64,000 nucleotides of DNA from Gluconobacter roseus NBRC 3990. GTDB taxonomy: Bacteria; Pseudomonadota; Alphaproteobacteria; Acetobacterales; Acetobacteraceae. The notes under the pieces were generated by a model that was given only the letters and a program-made list of their open reading frames with translations, had not been told where the DNA came from and did no database searches. Within the stretch, counting starts at the first letter, position 1. Every line of letters starts with the position of its first letter. Shown here piece after piece: positions 16 to 11,229 of the stretch. The DNA lies in NCBI RefSeq assembly GCF_006538885.1, contig NZ_BJLY01000004.1, positions 1 to 64,000 of the forward strand, written 5' to 3'. The position numbers and the translations under genes were made by a program.

Positions 16-52
16 AAAAACCCCGCTAAGTCAACGGCTTAGCGGGGTTTTT
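16..52 (+). terminator. intrinsic terminator, probably bidirectional
   Basis: A perfect inverted repeat (AAAAACCCCGCTAAG paired with CTTAGCGGGGTTTTT, seven-base loop) with A-run on the left and T-run on the right. It can end a rightward transcript entering from outside the window and the leftward MocR-type gene, whose stop codon (39-41) lies inside the hairpin. Confidence 0.9.
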
Positions 53-1508
53 GTGCGTTATTCTGACTGGATGTGATCTCTGCAAGGCAGCGGAAAAGCT
101 TTGGCGAGTTCATCTGGCTTGTATTGAAACGGAGCCAGGAAGTCTGCCTCTGATTAGGGCTGAACAGGAAGCCGGGAGCGAGCATGATGGCCTGTTCGGC
201 GGCTTTCCGGGCAACAGGCACTGGGTCCAGGTCTGTGCAAAAGCGTGCCCACAGGAACATGCCGCCTTCGGGATATGAGAAAATTTCCAGACCGGCAGCT
301 TCCAGAGACGATATGGCCGTCTTTCGGGTGGTGGCCAGTTTTTCCCGCAATCTCTCCAGATGCAATCGGTGTCGCCCGTCTGCGAGAATGGTATGAACGA
401 TGGCCTCGTTCATGGAACTGCTTGTCAGACTGCTGGCCATCTTAAGATGCAGGATTCGTGCGGCGATCTTCGCCGGACAGGCCAGGAATCCGACCCGTAG
501 CCCTGGTGAAATCGTTTTGGAAAAACTGCTGATGAAGATGACCCGTTCCAACTGGTCCAGATGTGCCAGCGTGGGAGTGTTCTCGTCCGCAAGGCCACCA
601 AAAATGTCATCTTCGATAATCATGAAATCATGACGTTCGGCCAGGCTCAGGACATGATGCGTGACGGACGGACTGCAATTCGTACCAGTCGGGTTATGCA
701 ACCGGGTATTGAGAATAAAGGCTTTCGGCTGCTCCGTTCTGGCAATACGTTCCAGTGTTGCCAGACAGGGGCCATCGTGAAAGCGTGGAATGCCGATGGT
801 CCGAAGGCCAAGCGCTTCGAGGGTCGGGAAGAGGTTGCAGTAACCGGGATCTTCTACAAGTACAGTGTCTCCTGGTTGGGTCAGACATCTGATGCTCAGT
901 TCCAGAGCCTGACTGGCGCCATGCGTGAGGATGAGAGCCGGCAGGTCACATCTGATGCCCTGTCGCAGCAGGAGCAGGCGGATCAACTCCCGGAGGCCGG
1001 CATGACCATAAGGATTGCCATACCCTGACATCTCCGGATCGGGACGACGCCCCAGCGCTGTAAAGGCATGACGGATACCCTCGCGGAAAAGATAGCTGTC
1101 CGGCAGCCACCCACATCCTGCCTGAACGACGGACGCGTTGTTTTCATAAGCCCGCTGGAGCATCCATGAGGAATCGATGGATGGGGTAATGTCAGAATGT
1201 ATGACTGTATTGTCAGTTACATGCTCCCTGTGTCTGGCCACGAAAAAGCCGCTTGCCCTGCGAGCTTCCAAGATCCCATCGGCTACAAGACGATTATAGG
1301 CATTGGAGACAGTAAGGGGACTGACACTGCATTGTCGGGCGAGGTGGCGGATGGACGGTAGGCGGGTGCCGGGTGTCCAGTTCTGGCTGCGGACCAGGGT
1401 TGTGACCTGCTGGACGATCTGGGTGACTAGAGGGGTGGGGGAATGGGGGTCTGTCTGGATCATGGGTCTGACTGTACCGGTCGTTCTTGCAGTACAGACT
1501 AGGCTCAT
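39..1508 (-). CDS. MocR/GabR-type transcriptional regulator (GntR HTH fused to aminotransferase-like domain)
   Basis: 489 residues. The N-terminal third holds a GntR winged helix (GTRLPSIRHLARQ, then SVSPLTVSNAYNRL, residues about 45-95). The rest is a class I aminotransferase fold with the PLP-lysine region SSFSKTISPGLRVGF. Proteins of this MocR family use PLP and an amino compound as effector and often control a neighbouring aminotransferase. This one is transcribed away from the transaminase at 1631, so control of that gene, perhaps in response to beta-alanine, is a reasonable inference. The ATG at 1508 has a close AGGGA Shine-Dalgarno. An alternative ATG at 1463 would leave repeated CTGTA elements outside the coding region. 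Confidence 0.88.
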   Translation of the reverse strand: MSLVCTARTTGTVRPMIQTDPHSPTPLVTQIVQQVTTLVRSQNWTPGTRLPSIRHLARQCSVSPLTVSNAYNRLVADGILEARRASGFFVARHREHVTDNTVIHSDITPSIDSSWMLQRAYENNASVVQAGCGWLPDSYLFREGIRHAFTALGRRPDPEMSGYGNPYGHAGLRELIRLLLLRQGIRCDLPALILTHGASQALELSIRCLTQPGDTVLVEDPGYCNLFPTLEALGLRTIGIPRFHDGPCLATLERIARTEQPKAFILNTRLHNPTGTNCSPSVTHHVLSLAERHDFMIIEDDIFGGLADENTPTLAHLDQLERVIFISSFSKTISPGLRVGFLACPAKIAARILHLKMASSLTSSSMNEAIVHTILADGRHRLHLERLREKLATTRKTAISSLEAAGLEIFSYPEGGMFLWARFCTDLDPVPVARKAAEQAIMLAPGFLFSPNQRQTSWLRFNTSQMNSPKLFRCLAEITSSQNNAQKPR

Positions 1509-1630: not shown

Positions 1631-2980
1631 GTGTCGAAACTGACCAACGGATTTGACTGTGTTGAGACTATCCGCAAGGGCACGTACTGGATGCCCTTTA
1701 CGGCCAATCGCAGGGTCCGGGCCGATCCGCAGGCACGGCTTCTGACGTCTGCGAAGGGGCCTTATTATTATACGCCGGATGGCACGGAGCTTTTCGATAC
1801 GCTTTCGGGGCTGTGGTGTTCCCCGCTGGGGCATGCGCATCCCCGGATTGTGGAGGCGCTGAAGACGCAGGCCGAGACACTGGATTATGCGCCGCCGTTC
1901 CAGCTCACGAATCCGCAGACAGTGCATCTGGCGGAGCGGATCGCCGGCCTTGCGCCGGACGGGATGGATCATGTCTTTTTTGCCAATTCCGGCTCCGAAG
2001 CGGTGGATACGGCGCTGAAGATCGCGCTTGGGTATCATCGGCTGCGGCAGGAGGGGCAGCGCTTTCGCATGATCGGGCGTGAGCGCGGGTATCATGGTGT
2101 TGGTTTTGGCGGCATGTCCGTTGGCGGGATTGTCCCGAACCGCAAGATGTTCGCTTCGGGCATGATGCCGGGCGTGGATCATCTGCGGCATACCTATAAC
2201 CCCGAACACATGGCGTTTTCACGGGGTCAGCCGGAATGGGGCGCGGATCATGCCGAGGATCTGGAGCGGCTGGTCGGGCTGCATGACGCCTCGACGATTG
2301 CGGCGCTGATTGTAGAACCGGTGCAGGGATCGACGGGGGTGATCGTGCCGCCTGTGGGGTATCTGCGCAGGTTGCGGGAGATCTGCACGAAACATGGCAT
2401 CCTGCTGATTTTTGATGAGGTTATTACGGGTTTCGGCCGTATGGGCGAAAACTTCGCGGCGCAGCGTTTTGACGTGACGCCGGACATGATCACGTTCGCG
2501 AAAGCCGTCACCAACGGCATTGTCCCGATGGGGGGCGTGATTGTGACTGATGAAATCTATAACACGTTCATGACCGGTCCGGAAAATGCCATCGAGTTCG
2601 CGCATGGCTATACCTATTCCGGCCATCCGATGGCGACGGCGGTGGCCCATGCGGTTCTGGATGTCATGGAGGAAGAATGCCTTTTCGCGCGTGTCCGTGC
2701 ACTGGAGCCGGTTCTGGAAGAGGCGGTACACGGGTTGCGCGATCTTCCTGCCGTCAGGGACATCCGTAACATGGGACTGACGGCGGGAGTGGATCTGGTC
2801 CCTGCGGAGGGTGCGCCCGGTGCGCGGGGGCTGGCCATTTTCGAGCGCGGTCTGCGCGAAGGTCTGCTTCTGCGCTGCACGGGCGACACGATTTCCTTCG
2901 GTCCTCCGTTTATTTCGACCCCGGAGCAGCTTCGCGGGATGATTGATGGTGTCCGCCGTCTGATCCAGTCCGTTTCCTGA
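1631..2980 (+). CDS. class III aminotransferase, probable beta-alanine:pyruvate transaminase
   Basis: 449 residues, GTG start preceded by GAGGCG. It belongs to the omega-amino acid:pyruvate transaminase group: NSGSEAVDTALKIAL near residue 110, the Asp motif LLIFDEVITGFGRMGE, and the PLP lysine in TFAKAVTNG about residue 290. The expected reaction is transfer of the amino group of beta-alanine (or 3-aminoisobutyrate from thymine) to pyruvate, giving malonate semialdehyde (or methylmalonate semialdehyde). It sits 24 bp before a malonate semialdehyde decarboxylase-like gene and next to the other reductive pyrimidine degradation genes, which supports that substrate. Other omega-amino acids remain possible. 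Confidence 0.88.
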   Translation: MSKLTNGFDCVETIRKGTYWMPFTANRRVRADPQARLLTSAKGPYYYTPDGTELFDTLSGLWCSPLGHAHPRIVEALKTQAETLDYAPPFQLTNPQTVHLAERIAGLAPDGMDHVFFANSGSEAVDTALKIALGYHRLRQEGQRFRMIGRERGYHGVGFGGMSVGGIVPNRKMFASGMMPGVDHLRHTYNPEHMAFSRGQPEWGADHAEDLERLVGLHDASTIAALIVEPVQGSTGVIVPPVGYLRRLREICTKHGILLIFDEVITGFGRMGENFAAQRFDVTPDMITFAKAVTNGIVPMGGVIVTDEIYNTFMTGPENAIEFAHGYTYSGHPMATAVAHAVLDVMEEECLFARVRALEPVLEEAVHGLRDLPAVRDIRNMGLTAGVDLVPAEGAPGARGLAIFERGLREGLLLRCTGDTISFGPPFISTPEQLRGMIDGVRRLIQSVS

Positions 2981-3004
2981 AAATACATCCTGTGAGGACA
3001 AGAC

Positions 3005-3412
3005 ATGCCACTTCTGCATTTTCACCTTGTTGAAGGCCGTTCCGACCGTGAAATCAGGGCGCTTCTCGATGCGGCCCATGAGGCCATGCTGGAGGCGTTC
3101 AGGGTTCCGCGCGGGGACCGTTATCAGATCGTCTCGGAGCACAAGCCCTCCCGCATGATCGTGGAGGATACCGGACTGGATATTCCGCGGACCGGAAATG
3201 TCGTGCTGTTGCAGGTGTTCAGCCGGCCGCGCGGGGAAGATGCCAATGCGCTGTTCTACCGGCTGCTGGTGGAGCGGCTGGAGGCGGATTGTGGGATTGC
3301 GCCTTCGGACGTGATGATCTCCGTTGTTGAGAACGAAGATGCTCACTGGTCCTTCGGCTATGGTCGTGCGCAGTTTCTGACGGGGGAGCTGGGTGGCAAA
3401 AAGCCGGAGTAA
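3005..3412 (+). CDS. tautomerase-superfamily protein, probable malonate semialdehyde decarboxylase
   Basis: 135 residues, ATG after GAGGAC. The Met is followed by Pro, which would be Pro-1 of a tautomerase-superfamily enzyme. Counting from that Pro, Asp-37, Arg-73 and Arg-75 are present, and so are Trp-114, Phe-116, Phe-123 and Leu-128, the residues I recall as the active site and hydrophobic wall of Pseudomonas pavonaceae malonate semialdehyde decarboxylase (about 129 residues). That enzyme converts malonate semialdehyde to acetaldehyde and CO2. Here the gene directly follows the transaminase expected to make malonate semialdehyde from beta-alanine, so substrate and context agree. Less specific automatic annotation would call it only tautomerase family protein. 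Confidence 0.82.
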   Translation: MPLLHFHLVEGRSDREIRALLDAAHEAMLEAFRVPRGDRYQIVSEHKPSRMIVEDTGLDIPRTGNVVLLQVFSRPRGEDANALFYRLLVERLEADCGIAPSDVMISVVENEDAHWSFGYGRAQFLTGELGGKKPE

Positions 3413-3471: not shown

Positions 3472-4935
<1,464 letters not shown>

Positions 4936-4987: not shown

Positions 4988-5677
4988 ATGACCGAGACTC
5001 TTCCTCCTTCTTCTGTCGGCAGGGCCGTTCACAGGACCCGCCCGGGAACGCCCCGCCCGGGCATTCCCCGTCAGGCGGCTGAAGCGGCCATTCTTGCGGC
5101 AGCCGAGCGTGTGTTCGGACTGCATGGTTTCCGCGGGGCGAGCGTGAATGAAATTGCCCGCGAAGCGGGGGTTCCGAAGCCGAACATCCATTACTATTTC
5201 GGGACGAAAGAGGAGCTCTATTGCAGCGTCCTCGAAAACATCATGACGTTCTGGCTGCGGGATGCCGATGACTGGCTGGTGCCGGAGCGGCGGGCGCGGG
5301 AAGGATTTGAGGGATATATCCGGGCGAAAATGGCGTTTTCCCGCGAGCGGCCGGATGCATCGCGGATCTTTGCCTACGAGGTTTTGCAGGGCGCGGGAAA
5401 TATCCATCATTATCTGTCTACAACCCTGCGCGAACACGTTGCGAGACGGGCACGGACATTTGAGGTCTGGCACAGGGAGCGCCAGATGCCGGCCATTGAT
5501 CCGGTGCATCTGATGTTTGCGATCTGGTCAATGACGCAGGCCTATGCGGACATGAGTGCGCAGATAAGCGCGGTGACGGGTCATGCCGTGCTGCATGACT
5601 CCGATTTCGAGGCAGGTCTGCAGACGATCCTGCGTCTTGTTCTGGGGTTTTGCAACGATATTGAAGATCGGGCGTGA
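4988..5677 (+). CDS. rutR: RutR-like TetR-family regulator of pyrimidine catabolism
   Basis: 229 residues from the ATG at 4988; the frame stays open upstream, but GGGGAG precedes this ATG and homology begins here. The N-terminal TetR HTH (ILAAAERVFGLHGFRGAS, then EIAREAGVPKPNIHYYF) is followed by the C-terminal ligand domain of the RutR/YcdC type. Compared from memory with E. coli RutR, SRERPDASRIF and IDPVHLMFAIWSMTQAYAD align closely with SRDYPQASRLF and IDPQHLIFMIWASTQHYAD. RutR is a repressor released by uracil. Its location between hydA and preT and the RutR-type palindrome upstream of preT support control of this locus. Confidence 0.85.
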   Translation: MTETLPPSSVGRAVHRTRPGTPRPGIPRQAAEAAILAAAERVFGLHGFRGASVNEIAREAGVPKPNIHYYFGTKEELYCSVLENIMTFWLRDADDWLVPERRAREGFEGYIRAKMAFSRERPDASRIFAYEVLQGAGNIHHYLSTTLREHVARRARTFEVWHRERQMPAIDPVHLMFAIWSMTQAYADMSAQISAVTGHAVLHDSDFEAGLQTILRLVLGFCNDIEDRA

Positions 5678-5833: not shown

Positions 5834-7177
5834 GTGGATCAGACTCCGAATATCACCGCAAACCGCCTGCCGCCGGACATGCTGGCACGGAATTTCTCAG
5901 ATGCTCATCCGCCTTTGACGGAGGGGCAGGCCACCATCGAGTCCGATCGGTGTTATTTCTGTTACGATGCCCCCTGTATCGAGGCGTGTCCGACCGGGAT
6001 TGATATTCCCGGCTTCATCAAGAAAATCTCGACAGGGAATATTCCGGGTTCGGCACGGACGATTCTGGAGTCGAACATTTTCGGTGGGTCCTGTGCGCGG
6101 GTCTGTCCGACGGAAATCCTCTGTGAAGGCAAATGTGTCCGTAACACGCAGGAAGACCGGCCCATCCAGATCGGGGCGCTTCAGCGTCATGCCACGGACT
6201 GGCAGATGCGGGCGGGCGCACAGCCGTTCAGCCGGGCGCCGCTGACGGGAAAGCGGATTGCCGTTGTGGGGGCGGGGCCTGCGGGTCTGGCCTGTGCGCA
6301 CCGGCTGGCCATGCAGGGGCATGATGTTGTCGTATTCGATGCGCGGCCCCGAGCGGGTGGCCTGAACGAGTACGGTGTTGCCGCTTACAAGCTGGCGGAT
6401 GAGTTCGCGCAGAAGGAAGTGGCGTTTGTCCTGTCCATTGGCGGGATCACAATCGAGAACGAGATGGTGCTTGGGCGGGACATCACGCTGGCATCTCTGA
6501 GGGCGGAGTATGACGCCGTATTCCTCGGGATCGGTCATGCCGGTGTCAGGGCGCTGGGGATTGCCGGGGAGTATTTTCCGGGTGTCCGCAATGCCGTGGA
6601 GTTCATTGAGGATCTGCGAGCCTCTCCAACGAAATCGGATGTAGCCGTCGGGCGGCGTGTGGTTGTGATCGGGGGTGGAAATACCGCCATTGATGCTGCT
6701 GTTCAGGCGAAGCGTCTGGGAGCGGAGGAGGTCACGCTGGTCTATCGCCGGGCGGCGGAAAACATGTCCGCAACGACGGTCGAGCAGGAATGGGCGCAGA
6801 CGAACGACGTTACGATCCGGTACTGGTCGGCTCCCATGCGGATCGACGGGACGGAGGATGGGGTTGCGTCCGTTACCTTTGCCCGTGGTGTCGTGAAGGA
6901 CGGGCGGGCGGTTTACGATCAGGGGGACTATACGCTTGAGGCGGATATGGTTCTCAAGGCGGTGGGACAGCTGTTCCTGCCGGACCCGCTGGCTGAAGAC
7001 GAAATCGTTATCGAGGGTGGCCGCATCAGGGTGGATGCCGAAGGGCGGACAACCATGACGGGCGTGTATGCCGGTGGAGACTGCACGGCGGGCGAGGATC
7101 TGACCGTGGCAGCTGTCCGTGACGGTCGCAATGCTGCTGAAGCCATCACGGCGGATCTGATGAAGGCGGGGAACTGA
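5834..7177 (+). CDS. preT: NAD-dependent dihydropyrimidine dehydrogenase subunit PreT
   Basis: 447 residues, GTG start preceded by GGAGAG. PreT is the flavin- and NAD-binding subunit that passes electrons to PreA for reduction of uracil and thymine to their dihydro forms. It has the Cys-rich N-terminal Fe-S domain (CYFCYDAPCIEACPTGID, residues about 38-55, and SCARVCPTEILCEGKC about 80-100), an FAD-binding GAGPAGLACAHRL near 145, an NAD(P)-binding GGGNTAIDAAVQAKRLG near 280, and the terminal flavin motif YAGGDCTAGEDLTV near 415, as in glutamate synthase small-subunit-like proteins. The preA start follows the stop by three bases, so the two are translated from one operon. Confidence 0.93.
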   Translation: MDQTPNITANRLPPDMLARNFSDAHPPLTEGQATIESDRCYFCYDAPCIEACPTGIDIPGFIKKISTGNIPGSARTILESNIFGGSCARVCPTEILCEGKCVRNTQEDRPIQIGALQRHATDWQMRAGAQPFSRAPLTGKRIAVVGAGPAGLACAHRLAMQGHDVVVFDARPRAGGLNEYGVAAYKLADEFAQKEVAFVLSIGGITIENEMVLGRDITLASLRAEYDAVFLGIGHAGVRALGIAGEYFPGVRNAVEFIEDLRASPTKSDVAVGRRVVVIGGGNTAIDAAVQAKRLGAEEVTLVYRRAAENMSATTVEQEWAQTNDVTIRYWSAPMRIDGTEDGVASVTFARGVVKDGRAVYDQGDYTLEADMVLKAVGQLFLPDPLAEDEIVIEGGRIRVDAEGRTTMTGVYAGGDCTAGEDLTVAAVRDGRNAAEAITADLMKAGN

Positions 7178-7180
7178 GAC

Positions 7181-8465
7181 ATGGCCGATCTGAGCACCAA
7201 TATCGCTGGTATCCGTTCTCCCAATCCGTTCTGGCTGGCGTCGGCGCCGCCGACCGACAAGGAATACAATGTCCGCCGGGCTCTGGAAGCCGGCTGGGGT
7301 GGGGTGGTGTGGAAGACGCTGGGCGAGGATCCGCCGGTTGTGAATGTCAGCAGCCGTTACGGGGCCACCCGCTATAACGGGCAGCGCATGGCCGGGCTTA
7401 ACAACATCGAGCTCATCACGGATCGTCCGCTGGCGGTCAATCTGGCGGAGATCAAGGCCGTCAAGAAGGATTATCCGGACCGTGCCATCATCGTCAGCAT
7501 CATGGTTCCGTGTGTGGAGGAAAGCTGGAAGCGCATCCTTCCGCTTGTCGAGGAGACGGGAGCGGATGGCATCGAGCTGAACTTTGGCTGTCCGCATGGC
7601 ATGTCCGAGCGGAACATGGGATCCGCGGTCGGGCAGGTTCCGGGATATGTGGAAATGGTGACGCGGTGGTGCAAGCAGTATACGCGGATGCCGGTGATCG
7701 TGAAGCTGACGCCGAATATCACGAATATCCTCAATCCGGCCCGGGCGGCCCTGCGCGGGGGGGGGGGCTGATGCGGTTTCGCTGATCAACACCATCCAGT
7801 CCGTGGTGGGGGTTGATCTGGATGCGATGGCGCCGATGCCGGTTGTGGACGGGCGGGGGACGCATGGCGGTTATTGCGGGCCTGCGGTGAAGCCGATTGC
7901 CCTGCGGATGCTGGGGGAGATTGCGCGGACGCCCGATACGTCCGTTCTGCCGATTTCGGGGATCGGGGGAATCTCGAACTGGCGGGATGCGGCCGAGTTC
8001 CTGGTCATGGGGGCGACGTCGCTTCAGGTGTGCACGGCGGCGATGCATTATGGATTCCGGATCGTGGAGGACATGATCGATGGCCTGTCCAACTGGATGG
8101 ACGAGAAGGGCTTCGAGACGATCGCGGATGTGACGGGGCGTGCTGTTCCGAATTTCGTCAACTGGAACCAGCTCAACCTGAAGTTCAAAACGCTTGCATC
8201 CATTGATCAGGAAGCCTGCATCAAATGTGGTCTTTGCCATATTGCGTGTGAGGATACGTCCCATCAGGCCATTTCGAAGACGCTGCTGAATGGCGAGCGT
8301 CATTATGAAGTCATTGATGAGGAATGTGTGGGCTGTAACCTCTGTGCGCATGTGTGCCCGGTGGATGACTGCATCACGATGGTGCCGCAGCCTGTCGAGG
8401 ATGTTCAGACATGGAACGAGCATCCCAACAATCCGATGAGCAAGATCCCTGCAAAAGCGGGCTGA
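7181..8465 (+). pseudogene. preA: dihydropyrimidine dehydrogenase subunit PreA, interrupted by a frameshift in a poly-G tract
   Basis: The reading frame runs from the ATG at 7181 into a run of 11 G (7757-7767), where it reaches TGA at 7769-7771. The rest of the protein resumes in another frame (GADAVSLINTIQSVVGVDLD) and ends at 8465. Removing one G restores a protein of about 427 residues. The N-terminal part is the FMN TIM barrel of dihydroorotate dehydrogenase type (SPNPFWLASAPPTD, GIELNFGCPHGMSERNMGSA). The C-terminus holds two ferredoxin clusters, CIKCGLCHIACED and CVGCNLCAHVCPVDDC. All catalytic parts are intact apart from the tract, and the operon is otherwise complete. A sequencing error, a slippage-generated OFF state, or a recent inactivating mutation are all possible. 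Confidence 0.88.
7757..7767 (+). repeat. 11-base poly-G tract inside preA
   Basis: Eleven consecutive G residues at the exact point where the preA frame is lost. Ten (or thirteen) G would restore the frame. Such mononucleotide runs are prone to slipped-strand mispairing and also to sequencing errors. Confidence 0.95.
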
Positions 8466-8503: not shown

Positions 8504-9766
8504 ATGAGCACGCAGTCTGCATCTGGCGCGGTTGGCAATGTTACCGTGAATGGCGTGAAGCTCTGGGAGGATATTCTGGAGACGGCACGGTTTGGTGGGA
8601 CGCCGAAGGGTGGAATCCGGCGCCTTGCGCTGACGGAGGAGGACCGTCAGGTCCGGGACTGGTTTGTCCGGGCCTGTGAGGCGCTGGGATGTACGGTGTC
8701 CCATGATTCCATGGGGAACCAGTTCGCGCGGCGTCCCGGAACGGAGGAGACGCTGCCGCCCATTACGATGGGGAGTCATCTCGATACGCAGCCGACCGGT
8801 GGGAAATTCGACGGAATTGTCGGTGTTCTGGGTGGTCTGGCGGTTCTGCGGACGCTGCATGAAACGGGGCGGGAGACACGTCATCCGATCGAGTTGATCA
8901 ACTGGACGAACGAGGAAGGGTCGCGTTTTGCGCCCGCCATGCTGTCCTCTGGTGTGTTTGCGGGTGTTTTTACGGAGCAGGAGGCGCTTGATACGAAGGA
9001 TCGGGAAGGCGTGCGTTTCGGGGATGCGCTTGAGGGCATCGGGTATCGTGGTGTGGAGGTCTGTGGCGCACATCCTGTGGCGGCGTATTTCGAACTGCAT
9101 ATCGAGCAGGGGCCGATCCTTGAAGTCGAGCATAAGACGATCGGGATCGTGACGGGTGTGCAGGGTATGCGCTGGTACGAGGTTACGCTTACGGGACGGG
9201 ATTCCCATGCCGGGAGCACGCCCATGCGGATGCGGGCGGATGCTCTGGTGACGGCCGCGCGTCTGATTGATGCCGTGCAGACAATCGCGCTGGAGCATGG
9301 TCCGGATGCGGTGGGGACGGTCGGGTTGATCGAGAACAGGCCGAACAGTCGCAATGTCGTTCCGGGGGACGTGTTTTTTGCGGTCGATTTCCGTGATCCG
9401 GACGACAGCATTGTCCAGAAAATGGAAGAGGCGTTTTATGCACAGGCGTCGGAGCTGGCCGAAGCGGCCGGTCTGACGCTGGAGATTGCGCGGGTATGGG
9501 ATACGCCTGCGGTTCAGTTCGATCCGGAATGCATTGCATCCGTCGCGCGTGCGGCTGATGCGCTGGGTTATCCGGCCCGGCGGATCGTTTCGGGTGCGGG
9601 GCATGATGCGACCTATATGGCGCAGGTTGCTCCGACTGCGATGATTTTTGTGCCCTGTGCCGGAGGGCTCAGTCATAACGAGGAAGAAAGTGCCGAGCCT
9701 GACGATGTGACGGCCGGTGCCAATGTGCTTCTCCGGGCTGTGCTGGAGACGGATATGCGTCTCTGA
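8504..9766 (+). CDS. N-carbamoyl-beta-alanine amidohydrolase (M20-family Zn hydrolase)
   Basis: 420 residues from the ATG at 8504, 38 bp after preA, with GGAGAACG upstream. It is a member of the allantoate amidohydrolase/N-carbamoyl amino acid hydrolase group. Metal-binding and dimer motifs are visible: GSHLDTQPTGGKFDGIVGV near residue 87, NWTNEEGSRFAPAMLSSG near 130, the HIEQGPILE motif near 200, DSHAGSTPMRMR near 230 and SGAGHDATYMA near 367. It should cleave N-carbamoyl-beta-alanine to beta-alanine, ammonia and CO2, the step after dihydropyrimidinase. Allantoate as a substrate is less likely because no other purine genes are nearby. Confidence 0.9.
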   Translation: MSTQSASGAVGNVTVNGVKLWEDILETARFGGTPKGGIRRLALTEEDRQVRDWFVRACEALGCTVSHDSMGNQFARRPGTEETLPPITMGSHLDTQPTGGKFDGIVGVLGGLAVLRTLHETGRETRHPIELINWTNEEGSRFAPAMLSSGVFAGVFTEQEALDTKDREGVRFGDALEGIGYRGVEVCGAHPVAAYFELHIEQGPILEVEHKTIGIVTGVQGMRWYEVTLTGRDSHAGSTPMRMRADALVTAARLIDAVQTIALEHGPDAVGTVGLIENRPNSRNVVPGDVFFAVDFRDPDDSIVQKMEEAFYAQASELAEAAGLTLEIARVWDTPAVQFDPECIASVARAADALGYPARRIVSGAGHDATYMAQVAPTAMIFVPCAGGLSHNEEESAEPDDVTAGANVLLRAVLETDMRL

Positions 9767-9810
9767 CAGGCGCGGCTGGCCGGATTTTTTGAGACTGGGG
9801 AGGGGCGTTG

Positions 9811-11229
9811 ATGAAGCCGGGTTTTGCAGCGGATCTCTATAACGAGGAACTTGCCCCGGTTGCGCCGGAGAAGCGGAACTGGTCATGGCTGAACATGGCC
9901 ACGGTCTGGATGGGGATGGTCCATAATATCGTGGCCTATGAAGCGGCGGCCGGTCTTATGGCGCTTGGTCTTTCAGCGTGGGAATGTCTGGAAGTCGTGG
10001 CCGTTGCCTATGCGATCCTCTTCGTGACGATGTGGCTTAATGCGCGGCCCGGAACGCAGTATGGGATTCCGTTCTGTGTCCTGATCCGTTCTGCTTTCGG
10101 GCCGAAAGGGGCACAGATTCCGGTTGTCCTGCGGGGATTTTGTGCGGTTTTCTGGTTTTCCGTTCAGGCTTATGCCGCCACACAGGCGATGGATGCCATT
10201 CTGTCCACGCTGAGTGCGACATGGGCGTCTTTCACTACGCCTGTTCTGGGGATGCCCGAAAAGCGCTGGGCGTCGATGGCGATCATCTGGGCGCTTCATG
10301 CCTGGATTTCGAGCCATGGTGTCCATCGTATCAAGAACTTCGAGCTGGTTGCAGGGCCACTGGTCATTGTGGTGGGGCTTATCGCGACAGTCTGGGGACT
10401 GCGGGTGGGGCATGGTCTGGGGCCGCTGTTTTCCGTCCCGTCCCGGCTGCACGGGTTGGCCTTCGTGGCGACGTTTGCGCTGGGCGTGACGGGCATGATC
10501 GGGATGTGGGCGACATTCGCCGTGAATATCCCGGATCTCTCGCGGTTTGTCCGGTCCCAGCGGGATCAGGTCATCGGGCAGGCCATCGGTCTGCCACTGA
10601 CGGCGCTTGTTTTCACTCCGATGGCCATCATTACCACGTCGGCGACTGTTCTGCTGTTCGGGCGGCCGATCTGGAATCCGACAGCGCTTCTGCTCGCGCT
10701 CAATCAGCCTCTTGTTACGGTCATCGGCGGGGCCACGCTCATTCTGGCGACACTGTCCGTGAATGTGGTCGCCAATATTCTTCCCGCGTCCTACGATCTT
10801 ATCAATCTCTTTCCTCGCCACCTTGATTTCAATCGGGCCAGCCGGCTTGTTCTTGCGCTGGGCGTTTTCTTCGTACCCTGGCTCTGGTTCGATCATGCCG
10901 ATAACATTTATCGGATGCTTGATGTCATCGGTGGTACCCTGGGGCCTGTGACCGGTATTATGCTGGCTGATTATTATATTGTCCGGCGGCAAACACTTGA
11001 TGTGGGTGCGCTTTACCGGCACGGGGATGTCTATGACGGCCGGGGAGGCTGGCATCTGCCGGCGGTCATTACTTTGGTGGTGGGGGGCGCTGTCGCTTCG
11101 GCTGGGCAGGTGGTGCCAGCTCTGCATGCCCTGGGGAATGTGTCCTGGTTTGCTGGGATTTTCATCGGGTTTGGACTGTATCTGGGCCTGACCTGCGACT
11201 GGCAGAAACGGAGCGTACAGATCAGATGA
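9811..11229 (+). CDS. NCS1-family nucleobase:cation symporter
   Basis: 472 residues from the ATG at 9811 with GGGGAGGGG just upstream; last gene of the preT operon. The N-terminal signature DLYNEELAPVAPEKRNWSW is typical of NCS1 (Mhp1, allantoin, uracil and cytosine permeases) and is followed by about 12 hydrophobic segments, including GTQYGIPFCVLIRSAFG near residue 75, the conserved NCS1 stretch. By position it should import uracil, thymine or dihydropyrimidines across the inner membrane. Substrate cannot be told from the sequence. Confidence 0.9.
   Translation: MKPGFAADLYNEELAPVAPEKRNWSWLNMATVWMGMVHNIVAYEAAAGLMALGLSAWECLEVVAVAYAILFVTMWLNARPGTQYGIPFCVLIRSAFGPKGAQIPVVLRGFCAVFWFSVQAYAATQAMDAILSTLSATWASFTTPVLGMPEKRWASMAIIWALHAWISSHGVHRIKNFELVAGPLVIVVGLIATVWGLRVGHGLGPLFSVPSRLHGLAFVATFALGVTGMIGMWATFAVNIPDLSRFVRSQRDQVIGQAIGLPLTALVFTPMAIITTSATVLLFGRPIWNPTALLLALNQPLVTVIGGATLILATLSVNVVANILPASYDLINLFPRHLDFNRASRLVLALGVFFVPWLWFDHADNIYRMLDVIGGTLGPVTGIMLADYYIVRRQTLDVGALYRHGDVYDGRGGWHLPAVITLVVGGAVASAGQVVPALHALGNVSWFAGIFIGFGLYLGLTCDWQKRSVQIR

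Follow-up and report, generated by a model that had tools for sequence, protein, structure and literature searches.

A malonate semialdehyde decarboxylase behind a beta-alanine transaminase in Gluconobacter roseus, and its probable role at the end of pyrimidine and myo-inositol breakdown in acetic acid bacteria

The stretch of Gluconobacter roseus NBRC 3990 DNA analyzed here (64,000 nucleotides, referred to as the window) encodes near its start a protein of 135 residues that, judged by its sequence, its active-site residues and its predicted fold, is a genuine full-length malonate semialdehyde decarboxylase (MSAD) of the Pseudomonas pavonaceae 170 type (PpMSAD). The best explanation for its gene context, with a probability of roughly 0.85, is that MSAD ends a route running through pyrimidine genes and the beta-alanine transaminase AptA, and that in acetic acid bacteria the same exit has also been joined to the myo-inositol route, where other bacteria have the dehydrogenase MmsA/IolA. 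Because uracil and inositol breakdown have malonate semialdehyde in common, it is very probable that MSAD provides a natural exit for this intermediate.

PpMSAD is known from the degradation of 1,3-dichloropropene (PMC10606566). In the accessible parts of the literature, MSAD is described in terms of its chlorinated substrates or of evolution in mycobacteria, or else as a mostly uncharacterized subgroup (PMC5818174, PMC10606566, PMC11641302). The MSAD family and both pathways are already known, and it is their combination, read from gene content, that appears to be new. Within the portions of the open-access literature that were covered, no paper was found that assigns MSAD to the breakdown of uracil or inositol, and priority is not claimed.

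The aptA-msad pair and the pyrimidine cluster of the window

The msad gene starts with ATG and follows aptA, which starts with GTG and encodes 449 residues, after a spacing of 24 bp (Table 1). Both the length of the tautomerase-family protein and this distance behind the transaminase are as given in the initial annotation. The aptA product had there been called a probable beta-alanine transaminase; it passes the NCBIfam equivalog model for AptA, and the solved structures closest to it (4b98, 4uhm and 3a8u) are of beta-alanine/omega-amino acid:pyruvate transaminases. The MocR/PdxR-like gene that diverges from aptA probably encodes the regulator of the pair. A divergent MocR homologue is present less than 600 bp from aptA in 23 of the 37 aptA-msad pairs found in a sample of 299 genomes of the order.

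Table 1. Features at the start of the window
Feature	Position	Strand	Basis
MocR/PdxR-like regulator, divergent from aptA	39..1508	-	NF052282 236 bits, below cut-off 320
aptA, omega-amino acid (beta-alanine):pyruvate aminotransferase	1631..2980	+	NF052567 636.5 bits, cut-off 500; nearest solved structures
msad, malonate semialdehyde decarboxylase, tautomerase superfamily (PpMSAD type)	3005..3412	+	sequence and structure model
hydA, dihydropyrimidinase	3472..4890	-	TIGR02033 584.4 bits, cut-off 393.25
TetR-family regulator, RutR-like, not called RutR	4988..5677	+	TIGR03613 155.1 bits, below cut-off 368
preT-like subunit, NAD-dependent dihydropyrimidine dehydrogenase (GltD-like flavoprotein)	5834..7177	+	GltD-like families, none shown over cut-off
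preA N-terminal fragment, frame ending just behind the G run	7181..7771	+	NF006183 positions 1-194
11-G homopolymer at the preA frame break	7757..7767	+	sole homopolymer of at least 9 in the window
preA C-terminal fragment, another frame	7803..8465	+	NF006183 positions 184-419; family match from 7737
hydantoinase/carbamoylase-family amidase	8504..9766	+	NF006769 620.9 bits, cut-off 452; TIGR01879 450.6, cut-off 204
NCS1-family nucleobase/allantoin-type transporter	9808..11229	+	TIGR00800 308 bits, below cut-off 353.1

When the 135-residue protein was compared with the Protein Data Bank by phmmer, the MSAD of P. pavonaceae was the top match (2aag/2aal, E 1.9e-47; 2aaj, 1.8e-46), followed by FG41 MSAD (8.8e-27), and the next match reached only 6.9e-05. 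The alignment with PpMSAD is full length, with 78 of 131 positions identical. Pro-1 directly follows the start methionine, and Asp-37 and the Arg-73/Arg-75 pair are present in the alignment, as are the wall residues Trp-114, Phe-116, Phe-123 and Leu-128, the structure model being poor at residues 125–135. All eight had been reported in the initial annotation as being in register with PpMSAD, and the alignment agrees at 8/8. The accessible text of two papers names the first four as MSAD active-site residues with roles (PMC11641302, PMC10606566), and that of one names the other four as a hydrophobic wall (PMC10606566).

The AlphaFold model of the protein has a mean pLDDT of 85, with values below 50 for residues 125–135, which include Leu-128. 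It contains the two beta-alpha-beta units of the MSAD fold, and its best match in the Protein Data Bank is 2aag_A (TM 0.87, 59% identity, E 1.4e-19). A chance tautomerase homologue was ruled out, because the match is full length, the eight residues are all present and the solved MSADs come first by sequence as well as by fold. The difference from PpMSAD lies in the setting: the window gene stands behind a beta-alanine transaminase among pyrimidine genes, whereas PpMSAD comes from dichloropropene degradation. FG41 MSAD (3mjz, 3mlc, 4lho and 4lhp) has the fold, Pro-1, Asp-37, Trp-114 and Phe-116 in common with the window protein, but only 53 of 129 positions are identical, and by the alignment and the accessible part of one description it has Gln in place of Arg-73 and Tyr in place of Phe-123 (PMC10606566). 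A second MSAD is encoded on another contig of the window genome; it is 57% identical, has all eight residues and lies beside a glycosyltransferase gene.

Compared with the PreTA-HydA-HyuC reductive pyrimidine cluster, the window has what appears to be the same gene set leading to beta-alanine, but its version is extended by AptA and MSAD, and its preA is frameshifted. Both preT and preA are present, the former being named preT because it sits directly before preA. The amidase is, from its context, the probable beta-ureidopropionase; the family models do not fix its substrate. The nearest clusters found are those of Gluconobacter cadivus (95% MSAD identity) and G. wancherniae (87%); in the strains LMG 1744 and NBRC 103581, respectively, the cluster is complete and preA is an open frame.

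The preA gene is split at the 11-G run. Homopolymers of this kind typically give rise to errors in sequencing or assembly, or to reversible slippage, and the break may have one of these origins or be a real loss. The 14 relatives compared at this site have mixed codons and an open frame, and preA in the other 73 of the 74 genomes with the gene gives one match without inner stops. Since preA is frameshifted in the assembly, this particular strain may be unable to start the pathway at uracil. The proposal of the initial annotation that pyrimidine degradation ends with MSAD is supported by the sequence, the structure model and the gene context in related genomes, with the reservation that the preA of this assembly is broken.

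Recurrence of MSAD with AptA, pyrimidine and inositol genes in Acetobacterales

The sample of the window's order (Acetobacterales) comprised 299 genomes, 97 of which have an MSAD match at E 1e-10 or better. Out of 113 MSAD places, 90 in 77 genomes were used; the rows dropped were 21 whose identity did not exceed 40% and two fragments at contig edges (G015 and G141:C3:9-137). Up to 20 kb was inspected around each place, with some stretches cut by contig ends. Locus L042, which is the same place as L248, was excluded from the context counts, and L245, which has its AptA homologue at a distance of 6.8 kb, was for this reason moved from the AptA class to the remaining contexts; the tree described below keeps its old label.

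The transaminase-tautomerase pair, whose recurrence across genomes had been suggested as a check in the initial annotation, is found at 37 of the 90 MSAD places, with AptA located 25–79 bp upstream on the same strand. Genes for PreTA are near MSAD at 12 places, 9 of them also with AptA and 3 without. The gene order varies: it is AptA-MSAD-PreT-PreA-HyuC in L061, PreT-PreA-HyuC-AptA-MSAD in L071 and PreT-PreA-HyuC-MSAD-RutR-HydA in L060. Across genomes, preA occurs in 25 of the 37 that have the pair versus 49 of the 262 others (odds 9.1, uncorrected for phylogeny). For genomes with MSAD in other contexts only, the figures are 6/24 versus 68/275 (odds 1.0, likewise uncorrected). Two counts speak against the link: preA and MSAD are not within 15 kb of each other in 28 of the 40 genomes that have both, and 8 of the 74 preA genomes have neither MSAD nor the methylmalonate/malonate-semialdehyde dehydrogenase MMSDH. 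Within 15 kb of the preA loci, 12 have MSAD, 4 have MMSDH, none has both and 58 have neither (p 1.0), so that local exclusion is uninformative here.

It could also be that the uracil part of the cluster is decaying in this strain and that AptA and MSAD serve beta-alanine from elsewhere, which is compatible with the best explanation. The frameshift at the G run, in a gene that is unbroken in the other 73 preA genomes, points in this direction, as does the lack of preA in 12 of the 37 genomes with the pair. We nevertheless regard decay as rather unlikely, given that the remaining genes of the window cluster are open frames and that a run of 11 G is prone to error and slippage.

Another 16 of the 90 MSAD places are inside myo-inositol (iol) loci. 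These operons of relatives, which the initial annotation did not mention, give the strongest hint at the substrate of MSAD. The myo-inositol pathway yields malonic semialdehyde and dihydroxyacetone phosphate, and IolA could convert the former to acetyl-CoA, according to the accessible part of one report (PMC6856214). In the locus L079, the genes beside MSAD encode IolD, a fusion of IolC with DKGP aldolase, IolB and IolE, all over their cut-offs, and an IolG-like protein just below it (518 bits versus 540); MMSDH was not found within 15 kb of this MSAD.

IolB was found at 38 places in 37 genomes, after two rows below the cut-off (G228 and G276) had been dropped. Within 15 kb, 16 of these places have MSAD, 11 have MMSDH/IolA, 11 have neither and none has both, a local exclusion with a Fisher p of 0.0007 that is uncorrected for phylogeny. 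MSAD (of the 90 places) and IolB occur together in 16 genomes, and in 16/16 they are less than 10 kb apart. Three genomes (G031, G092 and G137) have two MSAD copies each, one behind AptA and one in an iol locus, as expected if both copies act on malonate semialdehyde. G137 is a member of the window's genus. The window genome itself has no match to IolB (TIGR04378) at E 1e-20.

The remaining contexts, neither pyrimidine/AptA nor iol, account for 34 of the 90 MSAD places, including the second copy of the window genome, and these places count against the proposed role. Pfam and NCBIfam scans of selected neighbors revealed no common partner at these 34 places, some of which are cut by contig ends. 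The neighbors include genes for a glycosyltransferase, an aldehyde dehydrogenase, a GMC oxidoreductase, IlvD/HpcH, an allophanate hydrolase, an Fe-alcohol dehydrogenase and others.

Proposed route and other exits for malonate semialdehyde

We infer the substrate, the reaction, its direction and the fate of the acetaldehyde from this combination of genes. HydA and the HyuC-like amidase would convert dihydrouracil to beta-alanine, and AptA would then turn beta-alanine and pyruvate into alanine and malonate semialdehyde. MSAD would split the latter into acetaldehyde and CO2 without the use of CoA, with Pro-1 as the general acid and Asp-37, Arg-73 and Arg-75 assisting in the active site. The acetaldehyde could be oxidized by the cell to acetate, perhaps at the membrane as the initial annotation suggested. 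Such an oxidation, followed by activation of the acetate, is conceivable because the window genome has an acetyl-CoA synthetase over the cut-off as well as several MoCoBD_2 matches.

The known exits differ in their products. IolA/MmsA is of the aldehyde dehydrogenase family and depends on NAD and CoA; it likewise takes malonate semialdehyde, as the last step of inositol breakdown, but belongs to a different family from MSAD. RutE-type malonic semialdehyde reductase disposes of malonate semialdehyde from pyrimidines and yields 3-hydroxypropionate. The initial annotation had placed the window MSAD as an exit in place of both.

For the dehydrogenase (MMSDH), matches to TIGR01722 were counted only over the model's cut-off. 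A malonate semialdehyde dehydrogenase elsewhere in the window genome was set aside, as none is over the cut-off: the best match has 311.7 bits versus 448.5, with 5 of the 14 first-look candidates scored, and the matches over the cut-off in the same search score 636.5 or more. The same holds for every one of the 24 sampled genomes of the genus, the window genome included, and no MMSDH over the cut-off lies within 15 kb of any of the 90 MSAD places. A genome-wide anticorrelation of MSAD and MMSDH was not found, since 29 of the 77 MSAD genomes have both (Fisher p 0.33). The exclusion holds only locally, at the IolB places.

As for the reductase, a RutE-like protein over the cut-off is encoded in 293 of the 299 genomes, the window genome among them, and reduction to 3-hydroxypropionate could take place there because of it. 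As a discriminating marker the reductase is useless; its genes are near-universal whatever the pathway and therefore say little.

The tautomerase might then be an MSAD-family protein whose main activity is a different one, namely the hydration or tautomerization of a related acid, with the RutE-like reductase making 3-hydroxypropionate. To our knowledge, no other fitting intermediate is common to the AptA/pyrimidine and the iol contexts, which have malonate semialdehyde in common. Moreover, at none of the 38 IolB places are MSAD and MMSDH both present within 15 kb, each place having one of them or neither, and 57 of the 60 homologous loci aligned retain the eight MSAD residues, the 3 exceptions being homologues with 36–39% identity. 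A different main activity is therefore improbable, even though a promiscuous hydratase activity of MSAD is described in the accessible part of one paper (PMC11641302), and another, seen likewise in part, cautions that in each tautomerase subgroup an unknown proportion of the proteins may fail to catalyze the founder reaction (PMC5818174).

A further question is what a decarboxylase at the end of these pathways would be used for. The step might serve to salvage nitrogen and to dispose of a reactive aldehyde more than to assimilate carbon, with the carbon of beta-alanine being lost as CO2 and acetaldehyde or acetate; this would be compatible with the best explanation. The MSAD reaction is independent of CoA and gives no acetyl-CoA directly, the sampled genomes of the genus are without MMSDH over the cut-off, and acetic acid bacteria excrete oxidized products. 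Against this, carbon assimilation is also feasible because acetyl-CoA synthetase is encoded, and in the iol operons MSAD would end a pathway for a carbon source. We hold the salvage function to be a tentative suggestion, with the odds slightly against it.

Having malonate semialdehyde in common, the two unrelated types of operon would give MSAD a natural role, and this role is testable in the culturable Gluconobacter cadivus, Acetobacter pasteurianus and Asaia bogorensis, the last of which has an iol-linked copy. If MSAD does end both routes, the products of inositol and pyrimidines in acetic acid bacteria would be acetaldehyde and acetate and not acetyl-CoA, and a step that otherwise seems to be missing from metabolic models of these bacteria would be filled. 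It would also provide a natural source from which the pollutant pathway could have taken MSAD.

Context labels on the tree and loci outside the order

INDEPENDENCE and its limits are the subject of the tree of context labels and of the loci outside the order. The maximum-likelihood tree of 91 rows requires 19 changes of context label. From its starred branches alone, the iol label must have changed at least twice and the pyrimidine-plus-AptA label at least 4 times, by gain or by loss. The protein is short, with 134 columns in the tree, and many of the forks are weak; the partial row L247 was left out.

Outside the order, among the matches listed, AptA is directly before MSAD in L123, in two Methylobacterium loci (L183 and L184) and in a Beijerinckiaceae MAG (L187). 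These loci bear on whether the AptA-MSAD neighborhood was inherited once, by chance or hitch-hiking, and has no functional meaning. Most of the genomes found with the pair are indeed of one family. However, the pair keeps its short spacing, in varied surroundings, even where genomes have diverged to an MSAD identity of about 61%, and it recurs in Methylobacterium and the Beijerinckiaceae MAG, which makes a neighborhood without function very improbable.

The sample of the phylum outside the order contains 13 genomes with MSAD, and AptA is adjacent to it in 1 of the 13. IolB is encoded in 7, and it is near MSAD in only 1 of the 7 (G415); the other 6 genomes with IolB and MSAD have MMSDH. G415 is a genome of 1.1 Mb from another class, in which the genes for IolB, C, D, G and E are at most about 13 kb from a 43%-identical MSAD and a search for MMSDH at E 1e-100 gave no match. 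In two genomes of the same family (G463 and G670), MMSDH is directly beside IolB and MSAD is elsewhere. The link between MSAD and the pathways is thus weak outside the order. G415 is an exception among the genomes outside the order, and the context pattern is well established for the window's family and only hinted at elsewhere.

A broader reading, toward which we lean slightly, is that MSAD may be a general exit that has replaced IolA/MmsA more than once. It would form acetaldehyde without CoA and would end the pyrimidine/beta-alanine and myo-inositol pathways in acetic acid bacteria, the latter also in at least one reduced genome of another class. The oxidation of 3-hydroxypropionate could possibly be added, from the arrangement GMC oxidoreductase-MSAD-aldehyde dehydrogenase, and the enzyme of dichloropropene degradation would have been borrowed late from these routes. 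Among the best 80 of 584 relatives, 23 have AptA directly upstream of MSAD, 6 are in iol operons and 51 are in neither context.

The MocR-type regulator and the preA reading frame

A gene for a MocR-type regulator runs divergently from aptA, and a homologue of it was found at 23 of the 37 aptA-msad pairs. This regulator is a candidate sensor of beta-alanine. Farther along the window, preA carries a frameshift at a run of 11 G, the only homopolymer of at least 9 bases in the 64 kb. On the evidence of one assembly, the frameshift may equally be an error, slippage or loss.

Positions of the features discussed
Feature	Position	Context
MocR-type regulator	window 39-1508	divergent from aptA
11-G run	window 7757-7767	preA frameshift
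Second MSAD of the window genome (G000)	L033:9597-9998 = G000:C5:37097-37498	adjoins glycosyltransferase
MSAD with flanking genes	L090:8149-11927	GMC oxidoreductase, aldehyde dehydrogenase

Further copies and contexts of MSAD

The second MSAD of the Gluconobacter roseus genome has an identity of 57% and keeps all eight active-site residues. In the tree it clusters with copies from six other genomes of the genus.

At the MSAD loci L044, L046, L049 and L248, the gene adjoins a sugar transporter and IolG-like genes lie close by; some of these loci also have IolD-like genes (about 50-56%). IolB had no match in the genomes of this group, and the arrangement is possibly a variant cyclitol pathway. 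L167 and L169, both named as Komagataeibacter, belong to the same set of loci. A 1.1-Mb genome of another class (G415; L135, L256) retains homologues of IolB, C, D, E and G alongside MSAD, and no MMSDH was detected in it at E 1e-100.

At L091, as at L090, MSAD is flanked by a GMC oxidoreductase and an aldehyde dehydrogenase, and the three enzymes could possibly form a route from 3-hydroxypropionate through malonate semialdehyde and acetaldehyde to acetate. At L087 and L151, genes for a dehydratase of the IlvD/EDD type and for an aldolase of the HpcH type lie upstream of MSAD, a set that perhaps belongs to a sugar-acid pathway yielding malonate semialdehyde. In Exiguobacterium undae (L237), an aldehyde dehydrogenase gene is immediately 5' of MSAD.
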